33,713 bases of DNA. Source: a virus. The notes beneath the pieces are model-generated. The model did not search any database. It saw only the letters and a program-made list of their open reading frames with translations, and was not told where the DNA came from. Below, in pieces: positions 4,256 to 33,713 of the stretch (position 1 is its first letter; each line of letters opens with the position of its first letter). The stretch lies in IMG/VR virus record IMGVR_UViG_3300035698_008689, positions 1 through 33,713 of that record. One strand, written 5' to 3'. The position numbers and the translations under genes were made by a program.

Positions 4256-4627
4256 TTGGCAACGGTATTGACTGATAGAAAAGGACTACGATTTGTAGAT
4301 ACAAGAGTTCGTTCAGATGGATTGAGTGCATTAATAGTAGATGCTCAAGTATCAGCGACAGATCTTGATATTCGCGATTTAATGGAATCGCAAGATAGTG
4401 TTAAGATCGGAAACGATAGCAAATTCTTAATTATTAATGCAGATGGTTCTGTTAATGCAATTAATACCGCAAGCTTAATACCGAAAAAGTTTGATGATGT
4501 TCATATTGATTATGTAAACGGGAATCCCGTTACTGTAATTTACAAATCCTCGACAGTTGTAGTTGCAACATTAACATTAATTTACAATGTCGATGGAAAT
4601 ATAACCGATGTGAGAAGGGGCGATTAG
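4256..4627 (+). CDS. Fibre-type structural protein with LDIRDL repeat
   Basis: This encodes 123 aa from a TTG start at 4256, with GTGA 5 nt upstream and no ATG nearby. The middle carries SATDLDIRDLMESQDSVKI, a repeat common in phage fibre and baseplate-associated proteins and found again in the gene at 6121. The C-terminus (NPVTVIYKSSTVVVATLTLI) is a beta-hairpin module typical of fibre proteins. The next frame follows the TAG stop without a gap, in the same phase. Placement between capsid and neck genes suggests a head fibre or collar component rather than a tail fibre, but that is inference. Confidence 0.65.
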   Translation: MATVLTDRKGLRFVDTRVRSDGLSALIVDAQVSATDLDIRDLMESQDSVKIGNDSKFLIINADGSVNAINTASLIPKKFDDVHIDYVNGNPVTVIYKSSTVVVATLTLIYNVDGNITDVRRGD

Positions 4628-6124
4628 ATAGCTAAAAAATTAACATTTAATCCATTCACTGGTAATTTTGATTATATTCTCGATTTAGAAAATCCATTAC
4701 AATATAAAGGTGGAATTGCAATCGCTGCAGACTTCCCATTAGTCGGAGTTGCTGATGTTGGTTGGTTTTATACTGTTACTGCAAGTGTAACCGATCCAGT
4801 CACAAGCCAAAGTTTTATCGCATACGATGAAATCTCATGGGGTGGAAGTTCTTGGATATTGATGGGAAACATATCTAATTTTTATACAAAGACTGAATCC
4901 GATGCAAGATATGTGCAATTTACCACAGCAAATTATGTGACACTTACCAACGGAAGCGACGGTAGTTCATTACATAATCACAATTCTATTTATTATACTG
5001 AAACCGAGCTAGACGCTGGTCAACTAGATAACCGTTATTATACAGAAACAGAGCTAGACGCTGGTCAACTAGATAACCGTTATTATACAGAAACAGAAAT
5101 TGACGCAGATTTTGTTCCATATACAGGAGCAACAGGCAATATAGATTTAGGTACTTACGATATAGTAACTACAGGAAACATTAAAGACCAGATTAATGTT
5201 TTGACAAAGATTAATGATTATTCAGCTGACAAGGACGACGAGGTCATTCTTGCAAACGCAATTTCTAATGATATAATAATTGATTTGCCTTCGGTAGCGA
5301 CTGCGACCAATAAAGAAATAAATGTAAAGAAAACAGATTCCTCTATTAACACAGTCACTCTTAGAGGTCAGACTCTTGGTCTTTCAACAGGGTTAATAGG
5401 TAACTGGAGATTCAACGAATCTAGTTGGAACGGTACAGCTGGAGAAGTCAAAGACAATACATCCTTTGGTAATGACGGTGTTGCAGAAGGTTCAACCATT
5501 ACAACAGGTAAGCTTGGTAATGCAGGACAGTTTTCTGCCAATAGAGTTTTGATTAATGGTTTAGAGCAGATTTCTACGGTTTCAATTTCGTTATGGATGA
5601 ATCTTCCTTCACAAAATAATGATAACTGTCTTTTTGAGTATGTTGCTGCCGACGGAACATTAAGAGGAGTATATACCTACTATAATAGATTATGGTTCAG
5701 TTTCCCCAGCTTCTATCAATATGGTGGTGTTGAGGTTGTTAATGATGGTACATGGCATCACATTGTATATACCTATGACGCAGACACAGATACTGCTCAA
5801 GGATATGTAGACGGTGTAGCACAGACTATGCGTTCCAGGAGTGCTTTTTCTGGTATAAGCCCTGCTTTTGCAGGTTATGTAGTAGTCGGTAGTTCAATAA
5901 AATCAGGATCTTACTACATCAGGAACGGTAAGGTTGACGAGGTCGCTATATGGAACAGAATAATAACCCAAACAGAGATAACCCAGTTATATAACGGAAG
6001 TACAGGAACAGAGATAAACACTTCCGACCGAGAAAAGATCGACGGCGAGAACTCGCAAACTTTAGACAATCAATACGATAGTGTAACATTATTGAGCGAC
6101 GGAACATATTGGTGGATATTATGA
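4628..6124 (+). CDS. Fibre/adhesin with LamG-like (concanavalin-type) domain; AUA start
   Basis: This encodes 498 aa. There is no ATG, GTG or TTG in frame before 4856. The frame opens with ATA at 4628, 4 nt after GGGGCGA, and the product begins (M)AKKLTFNPFTGNFDY, a natural phage-fibre N-terminus; starting at 4859 would remove a folded domain. Order: N-terminal module with YKGGIAIAADFP and WGGSSWILMG (1-80), shaft with FYTKTESDARY (about 82-95), HNH histidines, a tandem 15-residue repeat YTETELDAGQLDNRY (about 122-155), then a LamG-like jelly roll at about 254-458 (IGNWRFNES, DGTWHHIVYTYD, GKVDEVAIWNR). LamG domains bind carbohydrates or proteins, so this may be a host-surface or particle-attachment adhesin. 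UAG read-through from the upstream gene is the alternative to an AUA start. Confidence 0.78.
   Translation: MAKKLTFNPFTGNFDYILDLENPLQYKGGIAIAADFPLVGVADVGWFYTVTASVTDPVTSQSFIAYDEISWGGSSWILMGNISNFYTKTESDARYVQFTTANYVTLTNGSDGSSLHNHNSIYYTETELDAGQLDNRYYTETELDAGQLDNRYYTETEIDADFVPYTGATGNIDLGTYDIVTTGNIKDQINVLTKINDYSADKDDEVILANAISNDIIIDLPSVATATNKEINVKKTDSSINTVTLRGQTLGLSTGLIGNWRFNESSWNGTAGEVKDNTSFGNDGVAEGSTITTGKLGNAGQFSANRVLINGLEQISTVSISLWMNLPSQNNDNCLFEYVAADGTLRGVYTYYNRLWFSFPSFYQYGGVEVVNDGTWHHIVYTYDADTDTAQGYVDGVAQTMRSRSAFSGISPAFAGYVVVGSSIKSGSYYIRNGKVDEVAIWNRIITQTEITQLYNGSTGTEINTSDREKIDGENSQTLDNQYDSVTLLSDGTYWWIL
4991..5097 (+). repeat. 45-bp tandem repeat in the fibre shaft
   Basis: Two nearly identical 45-bp units (4991-5035 and 5036-5080) are followed by a partial third unit. 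The core GAGCTAGACGCTGGTCAACT is identical in both. The repeat keeps the frame and encodes 15 residues (YYTETELDAGQLDNR), consistent with a shaft that can lengthen or shorten by unit slippage. Confidence 0.85.
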
Positions 6125-6468
6125 CTAATTGGAAAAAAAAAATAATAAAAGATACAGATGGAAACATTTTAGATATTAATGTTGATGGTAGTATTAATGT
6201 TGTAGCAACAGCTACGGGTTTAGATATTAGAGATTTAGATTCAGCTACAGATAGTGTTGAGGTCAAACAGACAACGGCAACAAACCTAAACGCAAACGTA
6301 AGTGCAACTGATTTAGATATTAGAGATTTAACCGATGCAACAGGAGTTTTAATGGCTAACTTTGACGCAAGTAAGACAGTAGGTACAATGGAAATAAACA
6401 CTCCATTCAGTGAAGGTTTAACAGTCGTTGTATCTGGAACTCCAAAAATGACAATAGTATACGAATAG
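6121..6468 (+). CDS. Small fibre-type protein with two LDIRDL repeats
   Basis: This encodes 115 aa. ATG 6121 is preceded by GGTGG and overlaps the previous gene's stop by 4 nt; the frame also extends to a TTG at 6109 inside that gene. Two repeats are visible, TATGLDIRDLDSATDSVEV and SATDLDIRDLTDATGVL, matching the one in the gene at 4256. The protein ends with a beta module (EGLTVVVSGTPKMTIVYE) typical of phage fibre proteins. The two LDIRDL proteins flanking the LamG protein suggest all three assemble together. Function is inferred from motif and context. Confidence 0.65.
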   Translation: MTNWKKKIIKDTDGNILDINVDGSINVVATATGLDIRDLDSATDSVEVKQTTATNLNANVSATDLDIRDLTDATGVLMANFDASKTVGTMEINTPFSEGLTVVVSGTPKMTIVYE

Positions 6469-6544: not shown

Positions 6545-7540
6545 ATGACAATTTTAACAGGAAAAGTTGAAGTTCCTAAATCTGTACCAGGAGTCCAAGC
6601 GACACTTGCAGTAACGATAGCAGGAGTAACAACATCAGGAAACGCAGTAGTAAATATTGCAGAAAATAATAATTTAACAGACACAAGAAGACCACCACAA
6701 TTCTACGGAGTATGTACATCTAATACACTGACAATTAACAGTTTATTACCTGAATTATACGAAGCAACATACGTAAATTACGTTGTTGATACAGATGGAA
6801 CTGGTGTAGTTGGAGATTTAGTATACCAAGGTGTATGGGATTGTTCAACAACAGCATATCCAACATCACCAGCAAAAGGTAACTATTGGATTTGTTCAGT
6901 TGGAGGAACCATTTCAGGTGTTGTTTACACAGCCAGCGATTGGTTAGTATACAACGGAACAACTTGGGATAAAATTGACAACACAGATTTTGTAACAAGC
7001 GTTCAAGCAAAAGTAGGTGCAGTTGTTTTAACATCAACAGTAACCGATCCAGGACATGTACACGCAGCAACAGTAACAGATACAGGACATACACACAGTG
7101 GAATGTCAGTTCTATCAATGGGTAGAATTACCGGAGTATTAGGTGCAGCAACTGATTATATGTCAGGTGCAATTGGTGCAGCAGACACAACCGAATATTC
7201 AATTGTAGTTCCAACAGATTGTGTAGCAGAAGCAATGTATGGAAATCTTGCAATTGCTCCCGGTGGAGCAGATACAGTAGTTGTAACACTTAGAGTCAAT
7301 GGTGTAGATAGCCTTAACACATTTACAATTTCAGCAGCAGACACAACCGGAAATGATATTACAAATCACATTGCATTAACAGCAGGAGATGTAATTTCAG
7401 TTTCAGCAGTATCAAGTGCAGGAACAGCAGATGGATTAAGCGTATCACTAGCAATATTAGCAGACACAAGCTCAGATGCAACAGGAATCACAGCAGCAGC
7501 AGATTCCGGAGTAACAGGAGTAACAACAGTTATATCATAG
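6545..7540 (+). CDS. Abundant beta-rich structural protein with GHxH motifs
   Basis: This encodes 331 aa. ATG 6545 is used with GGTGA at 6532-6536. Residues about 90-147 form a known fibre module: YQGVWDCSTTAYPTSPAKG, then YWICSV, then ASDWLVYNGTTWDKID. DFVTSVQAKVGAVVLTS follows. Two GHxH motifs lie at H171/H173 and H182/H184; similar histidine pairs in T4 short-tail-fibre-type proteins bind metal ions on the trimer axis. The last 150 residues are a Val/Ala/Thr-rich beta domain. Codons are ACA/GCA/GGA-rich as in the capsid gene, it has its own promoter, and a hairpin with T-tract follows, so it is probably made in many copies. It is perhaps a head fibre or decoration trimer; the location on the particle is inference. 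Confidence 0.7.
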   Translation: MTILTGKVEVPKSVPGVQATLAVTIAGVTTSGNAVVNIAENNNLTDTRRPPQFYGVCTSNTLTINSLLPELYEATYVNYVVDTDGTGVVGDLVYQGVWDCSTTAYPTSPAKGNYWICSVGGTISGVVYTASDWLVYNGTTWDKIDNTDFVTSVQAKVGAVVLTSTVTDPGHVHAATVTDTGHTHSGMSVLSMGRITGVLGAATDYMSGAIGAADTTEYSIVVPTDCVAEAMYGNLAIAPGGADTVVVTLRVNGVDSLNTFTISAADTTGNDITNHIALTAGDVISVSAVSSAGTADGLSVSLAILADTSSDATGITAAADSGVTGVTTVIS

Positions 7541-7583: not shown

Positions 7584-8720
7584 ATGGTGAAAATTATAGA
7601 ATATGTAAATCCCGATGTATCGGAAAACGAAATAACTTACTTAGCTGTTAATTTAGCTGTTAATACTGCCACATTGACCGTTGAAAACACGGCAGACTTT
7701 TTAGATAATGATTATATTATTATCGAATCAGTCGGATATGAACAAGCAGAGATGAAACAAATTCAGACAATTACTGAACCTGATACAATATTATTAACAG
7801 GTAATGTTTCATTTGCTCATTCTATTTCAAAACCTATCAGGAAAACTTTCTTTAATCAAATGAGATTACATCGAAGTACTGATGGCGAAACATATACAAT
7901 GGTCGATACTAAAGAAATCGATTGGCAAGATAAATACAACAAAACAACATTTGAAGACCTAACAGGTACAGATGCTTATTATTATAAAATAGAATATTAT
8001 AATTCTACAAACTTAGCTTCAGAATTTAGCGATCCAATCAAGACAATCACTCAGCCTGGATTCATAACAGTTGAAGAGTTTAAAATGATGACAGGAATTA
8101 AAGCAGCAGATGCATTGCTTGAAATGGACATTAGATATGGCGCAGAACAAATTACAATAAAAATGTACACAGATAGATGTTTACAGACCGGTGAGCAAGA
8201 AACCCAATTTTATTTGGAGCCTGATACATTAGAATTTGCAGATATTAATTACGATCTTGAAATAACCAAAGATGACATCGTTGCATATGAAACAGATGAA
8301 GATGGTGTTAAAACATATATTACAACTAATATAACTTCAGTTGACAAGGATAGACACATTGTAACTTTCAATCGGACATACCCAAGCGACAATCATACTT
8401 TATTTATTGAATACAAATTAACATACAGGAAAATCGCAGATATGAAACAATCAATTAAAAAATTAAATATGTTATATGCATCTGTAGAATTTTTTAATAC
8501 ATTACCATTGAGGAGAATGCAACGTGGAATCGGTGGTTGGTCAATCAACGGCGTTTCTATGGACTTTCAAGGTAGCGAAATTAGATCCATAATAGAAGAA
8601 AATGAAAAGAAAATTAAGTTATTGCTTTCATCCTTAGAAAGAGTTTACACAAGAAGGACGAGAATTGGCGAAGCACCAAGAACATTTTACAATTCAAGAT
8701 ATAGATATTTTCCACAATAG
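7584..8720 (+). CDS. Head-tail connector (gp6-like) with N-terminal beta modules
   Basis: This encodes 378 aa starting at ATG 7584 behind GGTGATTATTA. The C-terminal half resembles HK97 gp6/SPP1 gp15-type connectors, which form a ring under the portal: FITVEEFKMMTGIKAAD and the helix ALLEMDIRYGAEQITIKMY open it (about 160-200), and a long helix with a basic end closes it. N-terminal residues about 18-90 form a beta module often found in such proteins (TATLTVENTADFLDNDYIII). Residues about 88-154 look like a fibronectin type III domain (LHRSTDGETYTMV, DAYYYKIEYYN). Connectors in many phages are only 100-150 aa, so this is a connector carrying surface-facing domains. It is followed by the stopper and tail-completion genes. 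Confidence 0.7.
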   Translation: MVKIIEYVNPDVSENEITYLAVNLAVNTATLTVENTADFLDNDYIIIESVGYEQAEMKQIQTITEPDTILLTGNVSFAHSISKPIRKTFFNQMRLHRSTDGETYTMVDTKEIDWQDKYNKTTFEDLTGTDAYYYKIEYYNSTNLASEFSDPIKTITQPGFITVEEFKMMTGIKAADALLEMDIRYGAEQITIKMYTDRCLQTGEQETQFYLEPDTLEFADINYDLEITKDDIVAYETDEDGVKTYITTNITSVDKDRHIVTFNRTYPSDNHTLFIEYKLTYRKIADMKQSIKKLNMLYASVEFFNTLPLRRMQRGIGGWSINGVSMDFQGSEIRSIIEENEKKIKLLLSSLERVYTRRTRIGEAPRTFYNSRYRYFPQ

Positions 8721-8729
8721 GTGTATATA

Positions 8730-9137
8730 ATGAATGAATACTTTGATGAAGACTCAGACTATGACATAAACGATGTGCGTGAAGACTTTGAATATATTTG
8801 GAAAAAGAATATTGTTCAAGTTGATTTGGTTAGACAGACGACTCCTCAAGCTGGAGATTATTTCTCATCAACAGAAGACGAAGGACAAGTTACTTTCAAG
8901 TTATGGGCAAATATCCAAGGTATTTCTTCCGACCAATATAAACAAGCAGTCCAAGGTATCATCACACCAGACGCACAATTACACGTTTATGTCAAGTGGG
9001 ATGAGAACATCGAGAATTTGGATATCATTAAATTCAGCGATTGGTACTATCGGATTAAAAATTACAACAAATCGATGTATGATGGTCAATTTGCATTCAT
9101 AGATTTCGATATATATCGTATTGATAGGGTGATTTAG
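8730..9137 (+). CDS. Head-closure (stopper) protein
   Basis: This encodes 135 aa. ATG 8730 is preferred to the in-frame GTG at 8721, which is part of the AGGTG site. The C-terminal half has the pattern of SPP1 gp16-type head-closure proteins: a beta barrel ending with an IIKFSDWYYRIKNYNKSM-type segment and a final strand (FAFIDFDIYRIDR). The N-terminus is very acidic. Location between connector and tail-completion genes matches the usual neck gene order. Sequence support is moderate because this family diverges strongly. Confidence 0.65.
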   Translation: MNEYFDEDSDYDINDVREDFEYIWKKNIVQVDLVRQTTPQAGDYFSSTEDEGQVTFKLWANIQGISSDQYKQAVQGIITPDAQLHVYVKWDENIENLDIIKFSDWYYRIKNYNKSMYDGQFAFIDFDIYRIDRVI

Positions 9138-12444: not shown

Positions 12445-12654
12445 ATGAGATTAGTAATGGATGCAAAAAGACACAAACAAGTATTTAGATTAAATATTGC
12501 AGAATTTAAAAAAGGCGATTGGTTAAAAGAAATTCCAATTTCCGATTTATTAGAAGTAACATACAAAAACGATCATTTGACTATCAATAATGCGATATTA
12601 TTGAAGACAAAAAATTTCGAGAAGAAAGATGGAGAAGATTCAAATGCAAAATAA
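12445..12654 (+). CDS. Small protein between tube and tail chaperones
   Basis: This encodes 69 aa. ATG 12445 has GGTGA 4 nt upstream; an in-frame ATG at 12427 precedes that site and is less likely. The protein is basic at the start and end with a central beta part (ISDLLEVTYKNDHLTINNAI). It overlaps the next gene by 26 nt. Its position before the chaperone pair suggests a tail assembly role, but no family is recognised. Confidence 0.65.
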   Translation: MRLVMDAKRHKQVFRLNIAEFKKGDWLKEIPISDLLEVTYKNDHLTINNAILLKTKNFEKKDGEDSNAK

Positions 12655-13042
12655 AACAACAGTACCAAAACCACACGATGAAGAAGTTCCTAAAATAGTA
12701 GAAAGTTTTGAGGACGCAGAAGTAGTAGAAGAAGAAAAACCACAATTCCCACATTGGATGAAAGAATTACCAAGTGGCGAATATTCAGTACAAACAAAAG
12801 ACGGCGAATTTATATTCGCAGAACTTAATTACGATGATATTAGATCAATCAGGAAAAGACTGACTGCAAACGGCAGGAAAAAAGTTGAAGGAGATGTTCT
12901 CTCTGCAGCTATGATATCAAAAGGTTTAACCAATAGATCAATGGGTGAACTAGATATTTTAGAGCTTAAAGGTTCTACAGTTATGAGATTACTAAACGCA
13001 GCTAATAAGTTATATAGTCTTGATGATTTTTTACAAAGTTGA
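12629..13042 (+). CDS. Tail assembly chaperone, short form (gpG-like)
   Basis: This encodes 137 aa. The gene overlaps its predecessor; a start at ATG 12644 with GGAGAAG upstream is an alternative. An acidic, disordered N-terminus (about 1-40) leads into a compact domain (about 45-135) with IRKRLTANGRKKVEGDVLSA, and the protein ends YSLDDFLQS. Tail assembly chaperones are encoded just before the tape measure and bind it before tube polymerisation. The same place, size and downstream overlapping ORF are seen here, together with a T TTT TTA slippery heptamer 6 nt before the stop. Assignment comes from context and frameshift architecture rather than sequence similarity. Confidence 0.75.
   Translation: MEKIQMQNKTTVPKPHDEEVPKIVESFEDAEVVEEEKPQFPHWMKELPSGEYSVQTKDGEFIFAELNYDDIRSIRKRLTANGRKKVEGDVLSAAMISKGLTNRSMGELDILELKGSTVMRLLNAANKLYSLDDFLQS
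13027..13033 (+). promoter_or_regulatory. Predicted -1 ribosomal frameshift site (T TTT TTA)
   Basis: In the frame of the gene at 12629 the codons read GAT TTT TTA CAA AGT TGA, giving the canonical X XXY YYZ heptamer T TTT TTA in phase. A -1 slip continues ACA AAG TTG AAA in the frame of the gene at 13039 without a stop, yielding a fusion of about 204 aa (135 + 69). An 8-bp stem (13038-13045 with 13106-13113) begins 4 nt downstream and might stimulate slippage. Confidence 0.72.
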
Positions 13043-13242
13043 AAGACCTCATTGAATATAACCGATATATCGAAGAAATCGAAAAGGATGTGAAGAAAAG
13101 TATAACTTTCAACATTTCTTTGCGATGGAATATCGATATTGAGGTCGTTGAAAGTTGGAGTCTTTCTAAAATAAAAAAACATTATTCGGCTTTGATGTAT
13201 GAAATAGAAAAACAAAAAAGATCGATAAAAGATCGAAAGTGA
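13039..13242 (+). CDS. Tail assembly chaperone extension (T part of a G-T fusion)
   Basis: This encodes 67 aa if started at TTG 13039, which overlaps the preceding stop, but it is more likely read as the extension of the previous gene after -1 frameshifting, adding 69 residues. The product is helical and highly charged (YNRYIEEIEKDVKKSI, SLSKIKKHYSALMYEIEKQK), as expected for the tape-measure-binding T domain. The phase relation is exactly -1 and no good ribosome binding site precedes the TTG. The tape measure gene begins 4 nt after its stop. Confidence 0.72.
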   Translation: MKDLIEYNRYIEEIEKDVKKSITFNISLRWNIDIEVVESWSLSKIKKHYSALMYEIEKQKRSIKDRK

Positions 13243-13246
13243 TACT

Positions 13247-14806
13247 ATGGCGAAACGGACATTTGATATTGTATTTAATACAAACATTGGAGATGTTGTC
13301 AACAAGACAACCAAACTGAATTCAGAATTAGAATTGATGGTTCTAGTAAACCAAAACATTAATGGTGTTGCGAAATCTCAATTAGGTACATATAGCCAAA
13401 TAAATGATTCACTAGAAAAAATGACAGGTCATGCAGATCGTACCGAAGATGAATTAGAACAAATTGAAAAAATGACTAATAAGATTAATAATAATATGCA
13501 AGATATCGAAAGTCCGTTCGAAAGCATATTATCTAACATCGTTCCATTCGGTTCACAAATAGTAAAACAAAATCACCGACTTACTGACATGGTTTCTGCA
13601 TTTGGTAAGGTCGAAAAAGCTGGTGGTTTTACGAATGTGTTGACTGATTATATGGCCAATTTCGGCACTAAGGTTGGTAAAGTTTCGGGATTTGTCAAGA
13701 ATGCTTTTGGCGGAGGACTTTCTGGAATGTTAACTAAGGCATCAGCAAGTCTTACTGGATTAACTTCTTCCTTTGCAGCATTACTACCGGTGATTATCCC
13801 AATTGGAATAGCCATAGCTGCTATTATTGCAGCATTGTTTACTTTACAAAGAATGTGGGTTAATAATGTAGGTGGAATGCAAACAACCTTCAATAAATTC
13901 GTTGCGACAATTCAACAAATGTGGAATAGATTCGTTGTTAATTTTGATAGAACATTAAGAGCTATTGGTCCAATAATTAAAATATTAATTGATCAAGCTG
14001 TACAACCATTGTTCAATTTCTTGACAATGATAAGTGGTGTGCTTGATGGTTTCTTTGCGGTTTTAATGCCAATCGCAGATGCAGCTGGAGAATTAGGTGC
14101 AGCATTCTCAGAAGCATTTGGAATTATGGGTGATGATGCAGCTTTTGACCAAATGACAATGATGGGTGGAGTGATTAAATTCGTTGGTGAAGTCTTGGGT
14201 GGACTTTTAAGATTAGTATTGAAACCATTAGTTGCAATATTGAAAGTATTTGCAACTGTCTTAGGAACAATATTATCACCATTGAAAATTATATACGATC
14301 TTGTTACAGATTTATTTACTAATATTTCTAACGCTGGATCCGATATGGCGAATGCATTAGATGTTGAACCGTTAAACTTATTCAAGGACATTTTAGTATT
14401 CATACAAGGCGTCTTAGACGGGATTTTTGGGACAATCAGTGATATCGGAAAAGCAATTACAGACGTTATTGATCCAATAGGAACATTAGCAGAAGCGTTT
14501 GACATGAACATTGGTGGAACAATCGACGATCTTGCAACAGCAACGAATGGATTACTTGGAGATATAATGGGTGGATTAGGAATGCTTGGGGAAATGGTTA
14601 CAGGTGATTCTGAAACTATTAGTCCAGACTCAGCACTACCTTCTGGACCAATCTCATCAAGCCAAGTAACTAGAAATGATAATAATAATACTACAAATAA
14701 TAATAATAACGTTGTTGTAAATTCATCAGGACCAATAACTGCAGAATCTGCACCTGGAGTTGCAAATTTAATTTCAGCAATGTTAACAACCAAATCGAGG
14801 TTATAA
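13247..14806 (+). CDS. Tape measure protein
   Basis: This encodes 519 aa starting at ATG 13247 behind AGTGATACT. The layout is typical: a helical, coiled-coil N-terminal region (1-110), a Gly/Ala-rich part, a hydrophobic segment at about 176-200 (LLPVIIPIGIAIAAIIAALF) that may span the membrane during DNA delivery, further amphipathic and hydrophobic helices, and a polar, Asn-rich C-terminal linker followed by a short hydrophobic end. Tape measures set tail length. At the usual rule of about 0.15 nm per residue this predicts a tail near 75-80 nm, shorter than in most myoviruses. No lytic-enzyme domain is visible. Confidence 0.85.
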   Translation: MAKRTFDIVFNTNIGDVVNKTTKLNSELELMVLVNQNINGVAKSQLGTYSQINDSLEKMTGHADRTEDELEQIEKMTNKINNNMQDIESPFESILSNIVPFGSQIVKQNHRLTDMVSAFGKVEKAGGFTNVLTDYMANFGTKVGKVSGFVKNAFGGGLSGMLTKASASLTGLTSSFAALLPVIIPIGIAIAAIIAALFTLQRMWVNNVGGMQTTFNKFVATIQQMWNRFVVNFDRTLRAIGPIIKILIDQAVQPLFNFLTMISGVLDGFFAVLMPIADAAGELGAAFSEAFGIMGDDAAFDQMTMMGGVIKFVGEVLGGLLRLVLKPLVAILKVFATVLGTILSPLKIIYDLVTDLFTNISNAGSDMANALDVEPLNLFKDILVFIQGVLDGIFGTISDIGKAITDVIDPIGTLAEAFDMNIGGTIDDLATATNGLLGDIMGGLGMLGEMVTGDSETISPDSALPSGPISSSQVTRNDNNNTTNNNNNVVVNSSGPITAESAPGVANLISAMLTTKSRL

Positions 14807-21715: not shown

Positions 21716-22693
21716 ATGGTATTACAATTTGATAAAAACGAAAAAGTATATGAATCTGATCTAAATAACTTAGCAGTTATGAATTACCAATCGGTAAGAG
21801 ATGGCTGTACAGTTATTCAAAGAACTCCACAAATCATGGGAGTTAGAGTTGAAGCGGGAAGCGTGTTTTTTACAAGTACTGTTGTTACAGTATCGCAAGC
21901 AGATGTTTCAATTACAGCAGCTGATCCTAGTAACAATAGGTTAGACCTTATTGTTGTTAATGCTTCTGGTGTTGCAAGTGTAATAACAGGTACACCTGCA
22001 CTTGAACCACAGACACCTACATATGATCCGCTAACTTATGTTGTATTGGCTAGGGTATTGGTACAAGATATATCAACTCAAATCTTCACGGCAGACATTC
22101 GAGACTTGAGAGTTTTAAGATATGAATTATTTTCAAAATTTATTGAATCTTCAATCGTTGCACAATCAACAGTTGTTGTCACTCATAACTTGGGAGATGC
22201 TGAACCAATGGTAAGTTGTTACGAAGGCGGAACAGTATTAGTAATTCCAGAATCAGTAACACTAGATAACACCAACCAATTAACAGTAACGTTCGATCCT
22301 GTGTTCACCGGAAGGATAATAGTATTTGGTGGAACAGGTGGATTACCAGTTGGCGGAGGAAGTCTTACATTAACAGTTGCAGAACAAGACGGAACACCAA
22401 CAGTACTTACAGTTAATGAATTAAAATTATCAGATGGTACATTAACCGATGATGGTTCAGGTGTTGTTAGCTTAGATCTATCTGGAACTATTAACTCGTA
22501 TATTCACAGCCAAGGTGTGACATCAGCAACTTGGACAGTTACACATAATTTAGGTGAAAAGTATGTTAGCGTTATGGTTTATGATTCAACCGATGTATGG
22601 ATTCAACCTAATAGTATAACATTAGTGGACGCTAATACATTGACAATTGGATTATCAGGATCAATTGTAGGAACTGCAGTTGTTAAAAAGTAG
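21716..22693 (+). CDS. Tail fibre protein with two copies of the shared C-terminal beta module
   Basis: This encodes 325 aa. The N-terminal 130 residues match a common fibre head module (YESDLNNLAVMNYQSVRDG, NNRLDLIVVNASGVASVITG). Then come two copies of a ~60-residue module repeated across this cluster: one internal (VVVTHNLGDAEPMVSCYEGG to GRIIVFGG) and one at the C-terminus (WTVTHNLGEKYVSVMVYDST to the last residue). A low-complexity linker sits between them. The carboxy-terminal copy probably forms the receptor-facing knob. ATG 21716 is 11 nt after GGTGA, a long spacing. Confidence 0.72.
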   Translation: MVLQFDKNEKVYESDLNNLAVMNYQSVRDGCTVIQRTPQIMGVRVEAGSVFFTSTVVTVSQADVSITAADPSNNRLDLIVVNASGVASVITGTPALEPQTPTYDPLTYVVLARVLVQDISTQIFTADIRDLRVLRYELFSKFIESSIVAQSTVVVTHNLGDAEPMVSCYEGGTVLVIPESVTLDNTNQLTVTFDPVFTGRIIVFGGTGGLPVGGGSLTLTVAEQDGTPTVLTVNELKLSDGTLTDDGSGVVSLDLSGTINSYIHSQGVTSATWTVTHNLGEKYVSVMVYDSTDVWIQPNSITLVDANTLTIGLSGSIVGTAVVKK

Positions 22694-22702
22694 GTGAACA
22701 TA

Positions 22703-23539
22703 ATGGTTAGATTTATAGGGAATGCAGAAGAAATTAGATTAGTTAATTTATTACCTGGATCTGCTCCAGGATCTCCATCAGAAGGAGACTTGTATTACGA
22801 CACGGTTGCTAAAGTTCTTAAACTACGAAACGACACAGCCTTCTTAGATTTATTAACCGAAGGCTCTGGAATAGAAGTTACAGACTTTACAGCAAAAGGT
22901 GATATGTTAATTGCAACAGGTGCAGGAACATACATCGCATTAGGTGTAGGTACTGATGGATATATTTTAACTGCAAACTCTGGCGAATCCACTGGAGTTG
23001 CATGGACAATACCAGCTGGGGATATTAACGAAGTTATCGCAGGAGCAGGTTTGACCGGTGGCGGATCTTCAGGATCTGTTACACTAGATGCTGTTGGTGG
23101 CAATGGAATTTATGTTTCAGCAAATTCATTTGCTGTTGATTTATCTGCGACCTCAGGTTTAAGTTTTTTGACAGGTGCATTAGAAATAGATGATTCTGTT
23201 GCTGGTTGGGGTCTTGACATTGTAAACAAAATTATAAAGATTGATCCAAGTGATACTAGTATTTTTGATACATCGGTATTAACAAACACAGTATCTAAAG
23301 TTCCAGTCTGTAGTGTTGTTAAAACTTATGTTGATGCAACAGCAAAACAATATACCCAAGCATTCACAACGCAAACAATTATTATCGTTTCACATAGTTT
23401 GGCGAGATACCCGATAGTTCAAATTTTAGATTCTTCTGGATATGTAGTGATCCCAGATGAAGTTCAACACACAACTACAAGTTCATTCACAGTAACATTC
23501 TCAGTAGCAACAACAGGTACGATTGTATATGTTGGTTAG
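22703..23539 (+). CDS. Tail fibre protein, short paralogue of the fibre family
   Basis: This encodes 278 aa. ATG 22703 lies 5 nt after GGTGA; a GTG at 22694 is within that site. An N-terminal module (VRFIGNAEEIRLVNLLPGSA, GDLYYDTVAKVLKLRND) is a divergent form of the anchor seen in the next three genes. The middle has the shaft motif ITSL-type GAGLTGGGSSGSVTLDAVGG with NGIYVSANSFAVDLS, common in trimeric fibres. The C-terminus (IIVSHSLARYPIVQILDSSG to GTIVYVG) is another copy of the shared knob module. It probably assembles as a trimer on the baseplate. Confidence 0.7.
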   Translation: MVRFIGNAEEIRLVNLLPGSAPGSPSEGDLYYDTVAKVLKLRNDTAFLDLLTEGSGIEVTDFTAKGDMLIATGAGTYIALGVGTDGYILTANSGESTGVAWTIPAGDINEVIAGAGLTGGGSSGSVTLDAVGGNGIYVSANSFAVDLSATSGLSFLTGALEIDDSVAGWGLDIVNKIIKIDPSDTSIFDTSVLTNTVSKVPVCSVVKTYVDATAKQYTQAFTTQTIIIVSHSLARYPIVQILDSSGYVVIPDEVQHTTTSSFTVTFSVATTGTIVYVG

Positions 23540-33434: not shown

Positions 33435-33713
33435 TCACTTTATAAATTTGCAAAGTCTTGGTAAAGGACAATAACCTTTCCTTTTCACTGTCGTGCAACT
33501 TGGAGGAAGAATTATCCTTTTGTATAAATATTTCAATTGTCTTTCTTTAGTTATACAATGTAAGAACTTTTTCCTATCCATAAACTTTTTTAAAATATTT
33601 TCTATGTCTTTTTCACTGTATCCTTCTGAAATTAAATGAGTGATTACAATAAACCGTTCGTGATATGAATTGTCGAATTCGTTTATGGAAAGTAATATTT
33701 TTGCTACGCAAGG
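33435..33713 (-). CDS. priL: Archaeal-type DNA primase large subunit, C-terminal Fe-S domain (5' part outside window)
   Basis: The reverse strand is open from the right edge to a TGA at 33435-33437, giving 92 visible residues. They match the C-terminal iron-sulfur domain of archaeal/eukaryotic primase large subunits: PCVAKILLSINEFDNSYHER, FIVITHLISEGYSEKDIENI and, near the end, ILPPSCTTVKRKGYCPLPRL followed by Cys. The four cysteines (visible residues 2, 73, 82 and 88) are in the order expected to hold a 4Fe-4S cluster. PriL supports primer initiation and handover in archaeal replication. A virus-encoded copy implies its own primase. Whether a small-subunit domain is fused upstream cannot be seen. 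Confidence 0.85.
   Translation of the reverse strand, partial: PCVAKILLSINEFDNSYHERFIVITHLISEGYSEKDIENILKKFMDRKKFLHCITKERQLKYLYKRIILPPSCTTVKRKGYCPLPRLCKFIK

Follow-up and report, generated by a model that had tools for sequence, protein, structure and literature searches.

The gene for a LamG-domain tail fibre in this virus opens directly behind the stop codon of its neighbour and carries an AUA at that point, which raises the question of where, and with what codon, translation of the fibre begins. The window analysed here covers an entire IMG/VR record (33,713 bases), and the features around the junction are collected in Table 1. The AUA abuts the UAG in the same frame with a gap of 0, and the fibre frame contains no ATG, GTG or TTG between that UAG and a TTG at 4859, its first canonical start, which is followed by an ATG at 4862. 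The abutment, the lack of an earlier canonical start and the sequence GGGGCGA at 4617-4623, 4 nt before the ATA, had been reported in a first-pass annotation and proved exact when the coordinates were rechecked. After the ATA, 497 further codons lead to the TGA at 6122-6124 and the 498-codon frame is intact; the chance of an open frame of this length is about 7e-17 from base composition. Absence of ATG, GTG and TTG from the first 77 codons has a probability of 0.11 at the virus's own codon usage and is weak by itself, so the significance of the region comes from homology. The predicted structure of the 90-residue fibre N-terminus was of low confidence and was set aside. A near-identical tandem repeat, YYTETELDAGQLDNR, lies further into the fibre gene, at 4990-5110 of the window.

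Table 1 Features at the junction of the small tail protein and fibre genes (window coordinates)
Feature	Position	Strand	Remarks
Upstream small tail protein	4256..4627	+	123 aa, TTG start, UAG stop; first gene of conserved two-gene fibre cassette; C-terminal domain ...VVVATLTLIYNVDGNITDVRRGD ends at UAG
SD-like GGGGCGAT	4617..4624	+	Variant of the virus's usual GAGGTGA; 3 nt before ATA 4628
UAG stop of upstream gene	4625..4627	+	Equivalent proteins in relatives end here with TAA, TGA or TAG
AUA, proposed initiation codon	4628..4630	+	Homologous to start codon of relatives' fibre genes
LamG-domain tail fibre gene	4628..6124	+	498 codons, TGA stop; Pfam Laminin_G_3 PF13385, E 1e-14, residues 314-450
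Conserved N-terminal fibre module AKKLTFNPFTGNFDY...SWILMGN	4631..4870	+	Partner of upstream gene in many tailed viruses
Internal SD-like GGGGTGGAA	4837..4864	+	Before TTG 4859 / ATG 4862; sole route to truncated fibre

A read-through query led to the Synechococcus phages S-SRP02 and KBS-S-2A, and profile and pattern scans of IMG/VR added many further relatives. Start codons were surveyed at places matching FNPFTGN[FL]D in IMG/VR after removal of near-duplicates, which gave 88 places among the matches listed. The codon before the motif was ATG at 81 of these 88, GTG at 4, TTG at 1, internal at 1 and ATA at 1, and the window stood alone among them in having no canonical start anywhere from the in-frame stop upstream to the motif. 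More distant relatives among the matches listed had canonical starts, and none had ATA. The nearest relative among these matches, L032 (IMGVR_UViG_3300033153_003943), is about 61-64% identical to the window across the 80-residue N-terminal module, and identity of the module to cyanophages S-SRP02 and KBS-S-2A is 33-40%. Nucleotide substitutions relative to L032 were distributed 25/19/46 over the three codon positions, and this bias towards the third position is as expected of a translated module. The junction reads ...LISVTRS TAA ATG ACT AAG TAT ACT TTT AAT CCT in L032 and ...ITDVRRGD TAG ATA GCT AAA AAA TTA ACA TTT AAT CCA in the window. Stop and start also abut in other relatives: TAA-ATG is found in L040 and L064 as in L032, TAG-ATG in L106 and in the S-SRP01 pair (L030), and TAA-GTG in L079. 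A pattern search of IMG/VR that spanned the junction and had N as the third codon base returned no near-identical contig.

Judged by homology, the start position of the fibre gene is settled at 4628, because homologues carry ATG at exactly that codon. By the same comparison, the N-terminus formed by residues 1-76 is genuine and conserved. The first-pass annotation had taken these 76 codons for a normal fibre N-terminus, which agrees with their 61-64% amino-acid identity to L032, and had proposed looking in homologues for an ATG at the codon equivalent to 4628; one is present in nearly all of them. Homologues starting only at 4859, which it had named as evidence against its proposal, were not what was found.

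The junction belongs to a two-gene cassette. Homologous upstream C-termini (VATLTLxY..SVT[KR]S, then the stop) end at the equivalent point and adjoin FNPFTG genes. An AlphaFold2 model of the upstream protein contained a C-terminal beta domain with pLDDT of 92-94 over residues 81-120 and 82 over the last three, and its last predicted strand, 116-122, ended at the stop. Fold searches with this protein found nothing significant; among viruses, the best hits were weak and included cyanophage proteins (S-SRP01, S-TIM5) from phages also found by sequence search. PHROGs and Pfam searches with the protein gave no match. Stop-to-start distances in the 60 pairs, among the matches listed, whose upstream protein could be recognised were -1 (15 pairs), 0 (6), +2 (12), +3 (15) and others; the frame relation in the same 60 pairs was 0 in 25, 1 in 7 and 2 in 28, and the upstream gene ended in TAA in 34, TGA in 20 and TAG in 6. 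Since these distances include 0, direct abutment is a normal variant of the cassette and only the ATA is odd.

In cyanophages (S-SRP02, KBS-S-2A, S-SRP01, S-EIVl, S-CBS4) the cassette has the same upstream C-terminus and an adjacent fibre with an NPFTG/NPITG-type N-terminus, but the junctions inspected have ATG starts, the C-terminal parts of the fibres are different, and so is the remainder of the viruses. Two separate genes are annotated in KBS-S-2A, the upstream protein ending ...VATLTLAYDGNDNLISVTKS at its stop and the fibre starting MAIKFNPFTGNLDL, and likewise in S-SRP02. The cassette, with unrelated fibre C-termini, is common to cyanophages, uncultured tailed viruses and the virus studied here (L021, L022, L025-L032, L040, L064, L106 and others besides the window); sequence comparison thus indicates that the small-protein/FNPFTG-fibre cassette is a widely exchanged module across unrelated tailed viruses. 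The start of the upstream gene is also non-AUG, with TTG 4256-4258 directly after an in-frame TAA, and two weak start codons therefore follow one another. A second small protein, at 6121-6468 of the window, resembles the upstream protein (4256-4627) over the N-terminal part of the latter, with SATDLDIRDL-type repeats, and directly precedes another tail/fibre-like gene, 6545-7540; from this resemblance, the cassette may be duplicated within the window.

The window encodes a contractile-tailed virus, with genes for sheath, sheath initiator/gp25, baseplate J and an HK97-type capsid; a prohead protease is also possible, from a match below the Pfam cut-off. An XPF/ERCC4-type nuclease matched XPF endonuclease structures, which we take to be archaeal, and many genes in the window have a GAGGTGA-type SD close to the start; together the nuclease and these SDs make an archaeal host likely. 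No close relative was found in viral or genome contigs when these were searched with the capsid, sheath and ERCC4 nuclease, and the sheath is only about 25% identical to those of known phages. A suspected PriL-like identity of 33435-33713 found no support in Pfam or PDB searches. Elsewhere in the window, a T TTT TTA slippery heptamer (13027-13033, +) lies in frame shortly ahead of the TGA that ends the ORF 12629-13042. The -1 frame stays open as far as 13242, and a tape-measure-like gene (13247-14806) follows directly. By its sequence, 12629-13242 resembles a tail assembly chaperone region with programmed -1 frameshifting, in a virus that is probably archaeal.

The best explanation of the junction, to which we give a probability of about 0.6, is that the fibre gene starts at 4628 with AUA as its initiation codon, recruited by the SD and probably aided by termination at the UAG, with reduced output. 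As would be expected of a natural AUA gene, the AUA stands at the codon where homologues start, and no upstream or nearby canonical start explains the product, because the UAG is directly upstream and 4859 lies inside the conserved module. The duplex of GGGGCGAT with the 16S 3' end was calculated at -7.2 kcal/mol with a spacing of 3, a compensating pairing at proper spacing that is moderate and weaker than the best sites of the virus; a score of -7.3 or better occurred at only about 4% of random positions. Ordinary genes of the window showed SD pairing of about -2 to -12 and spacing of 0-8, and GGGGCGAT falls within this range. The stop-start distance of 0 is also short, as termination-reinitiation would require, and relatives mostly have -1 to +3. 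In the proposed mechanism, GGGGCGAT, inside the end of the upstream gene, would bring the ribosome to the AUA, ribosomes fresh from termination at the adjoining UAG would probably help by re-initiating at the next codon, and the initiator tRNA(CAU) would read AUA by a weak third-position C-A pair, so that fibre synthesis would run at a fraction of the rate from AUG. Initiation at AUA in this host, help from termination-reinitiation and a lowered fibre dosage are what we infer from this arrangement, and the AUA is probably a weak but usable start. Considerably more tentative is the wider proposal that an archaeal virus uses AUA for a virion fibre, with termination-reinitiation at the UAG relaxing start stringency and setting a low fibre dosage. 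At two other places in the window, 8718-8732 and 22691-22705, a TAG stop forms part of the SD of the next gene (TAGGTG(A)...ATG), both genes being in the same frame; this sharing of stop and SD may explain why TAG is common at these junctions.

Base 4630 could instead reflect a minority variant or an error of sequencing or assembly, with an ordinary ATG in the virus population. The window is a single metagenomic contig, the codon is one base away from the start of nearly all homologues, and no closely related record confirms the ATA; the genes examined, however, showed no sign of other errors and their long frames were intact. One-base errors in assembled contigs are rare, and we regard this explanation as unlikely though credible.

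A real crippling mutation is a further explanation, under which little fibre would be produced, or TTG 4859 or ATG 4862 would yield just a truncated form. The strong SD-like GGGGTGGAA upstream of the TTG would suit this, the loss could be made good by other fibre genes in the window, and AUA is weak in E. coli (PMC12864459). Although GGGGTGGAA has a dG of -9.4, its spacing is 11 nt to the TTG and more to the ATG, longer than at the other genes of the window, and it lies inside the codons for the conserved WGGSSW motif. In addition, homologues start at the 4628 equivalent and the 498-codon frame shows no decay. A crippled allele therefore appears improbable; a truncated product is possible, but not as the ancestral one.

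Read-through of the UAG (e.g. by pyrrolysine or a suppressor tRNA) to give a fusion of 622 aa, a length confirmed by recomputation, would fit two frames that are the same and abutting but is very improbable, given that cassette pairs among the matches listed use all three frame relations and all three stops, relatives' fibre genes have their own ATG, in the AlphaFold2 model the upstream domain is already complete when the stop is reached, UAG ends ten other genes, several of them with another stop within a few codons, and the window contains no tRNA gene. A fusion would predict one kept frame and the lack of an own start in relatives, and neither was seen. Same-frame adjacency was considered as a signal and rejected, being found in 25 of the 60 pairs among the matches listed and at two other TAG-ended genes here. 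The UAG-ended genes besides 4256..4627 comprise nine in the gene list and 3-308, in line with the first-pass count of at least ten, and UAG is an ordinary stop in this virus. That annotation had left a choice between AUA initiation and read-through; its start at 4628 is upheld by the ATG at the homologous codon, and the 622-aa product is not.

If AUA does initiate, natural AUA initiation, known from bacteria, would extend to a probably archaeal virus, and the junction would offer a natural test of near-cognate start tolerance during termination-reinitiation in archaea. Gene callers would lose the conserved first 76 residues of such a fibre, and homology at the junction recovers non-canonical starts of this kind.

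Published evidence bears on initiation at the AUA in both directions. The archaeal starts described in one review are AUG, GUG and UUG (PMC7531240), and the output of AUA in E. coli reporters was no more than about 1% of that of AUG (Hecht 2017, cited by PMC12864459); both count against it. A spontaneous ATG>ATA allele of E. coli rpoS lowered the protein at most 5-fold (PMC12864459), and bacterial initiation factor 3 in vitro tolerates some non-Watson-Crick third-base pairs, weak ones being largely excluded (PMC10158994). In a eukaryotic system, ribosomes reinitiating beside a stop accept codons other than AUG, a putative AUA among them (PMC3035654). In S. solfataricus an adjacent pair, UGAGUG, was not coupled (PMC6728339), which counts against coupling here.

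The closest parallel for the codon is S. aureus, where infC, ccpN and citZ have AUA starts with an extended or strong SD and about 10-30% of AUG output where measured (PMC13009471). Because such starts are documented in bacteria, the earlier statement that either initiation at AUA or read-through would be unusual was too strong. The S. aureus genes and the fibre gene share an AUA at the initiation position and a compensating SD, and in S. aureus the codon keeps expression low. The S. aureus starts are bacterial and were located through ribosome profiling, with reporters in addition for ccpN and citZ, whereas the present case concerns the predicted start of a structural gene in a probably archaeal virus. 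The ccpN AUA start is conserved in B. subtilis (PMC13009471), whereas the AUA of the window is unique to one sequence among the matches listed. For the junction, the parallel lies in Haloferax and E. coli, where termination-reinitiation operates across very short distances (PMC6728339, PMC10666635). The pairs described there have canonical starts and in most cases a 4- or 1-nt overlap, whereas the window has a gap of 0, an AUA and putative coupling; in both, stop and start lie within a few nt, the SD is inside the upstream gene and the two genes appear to form a single functional unit.
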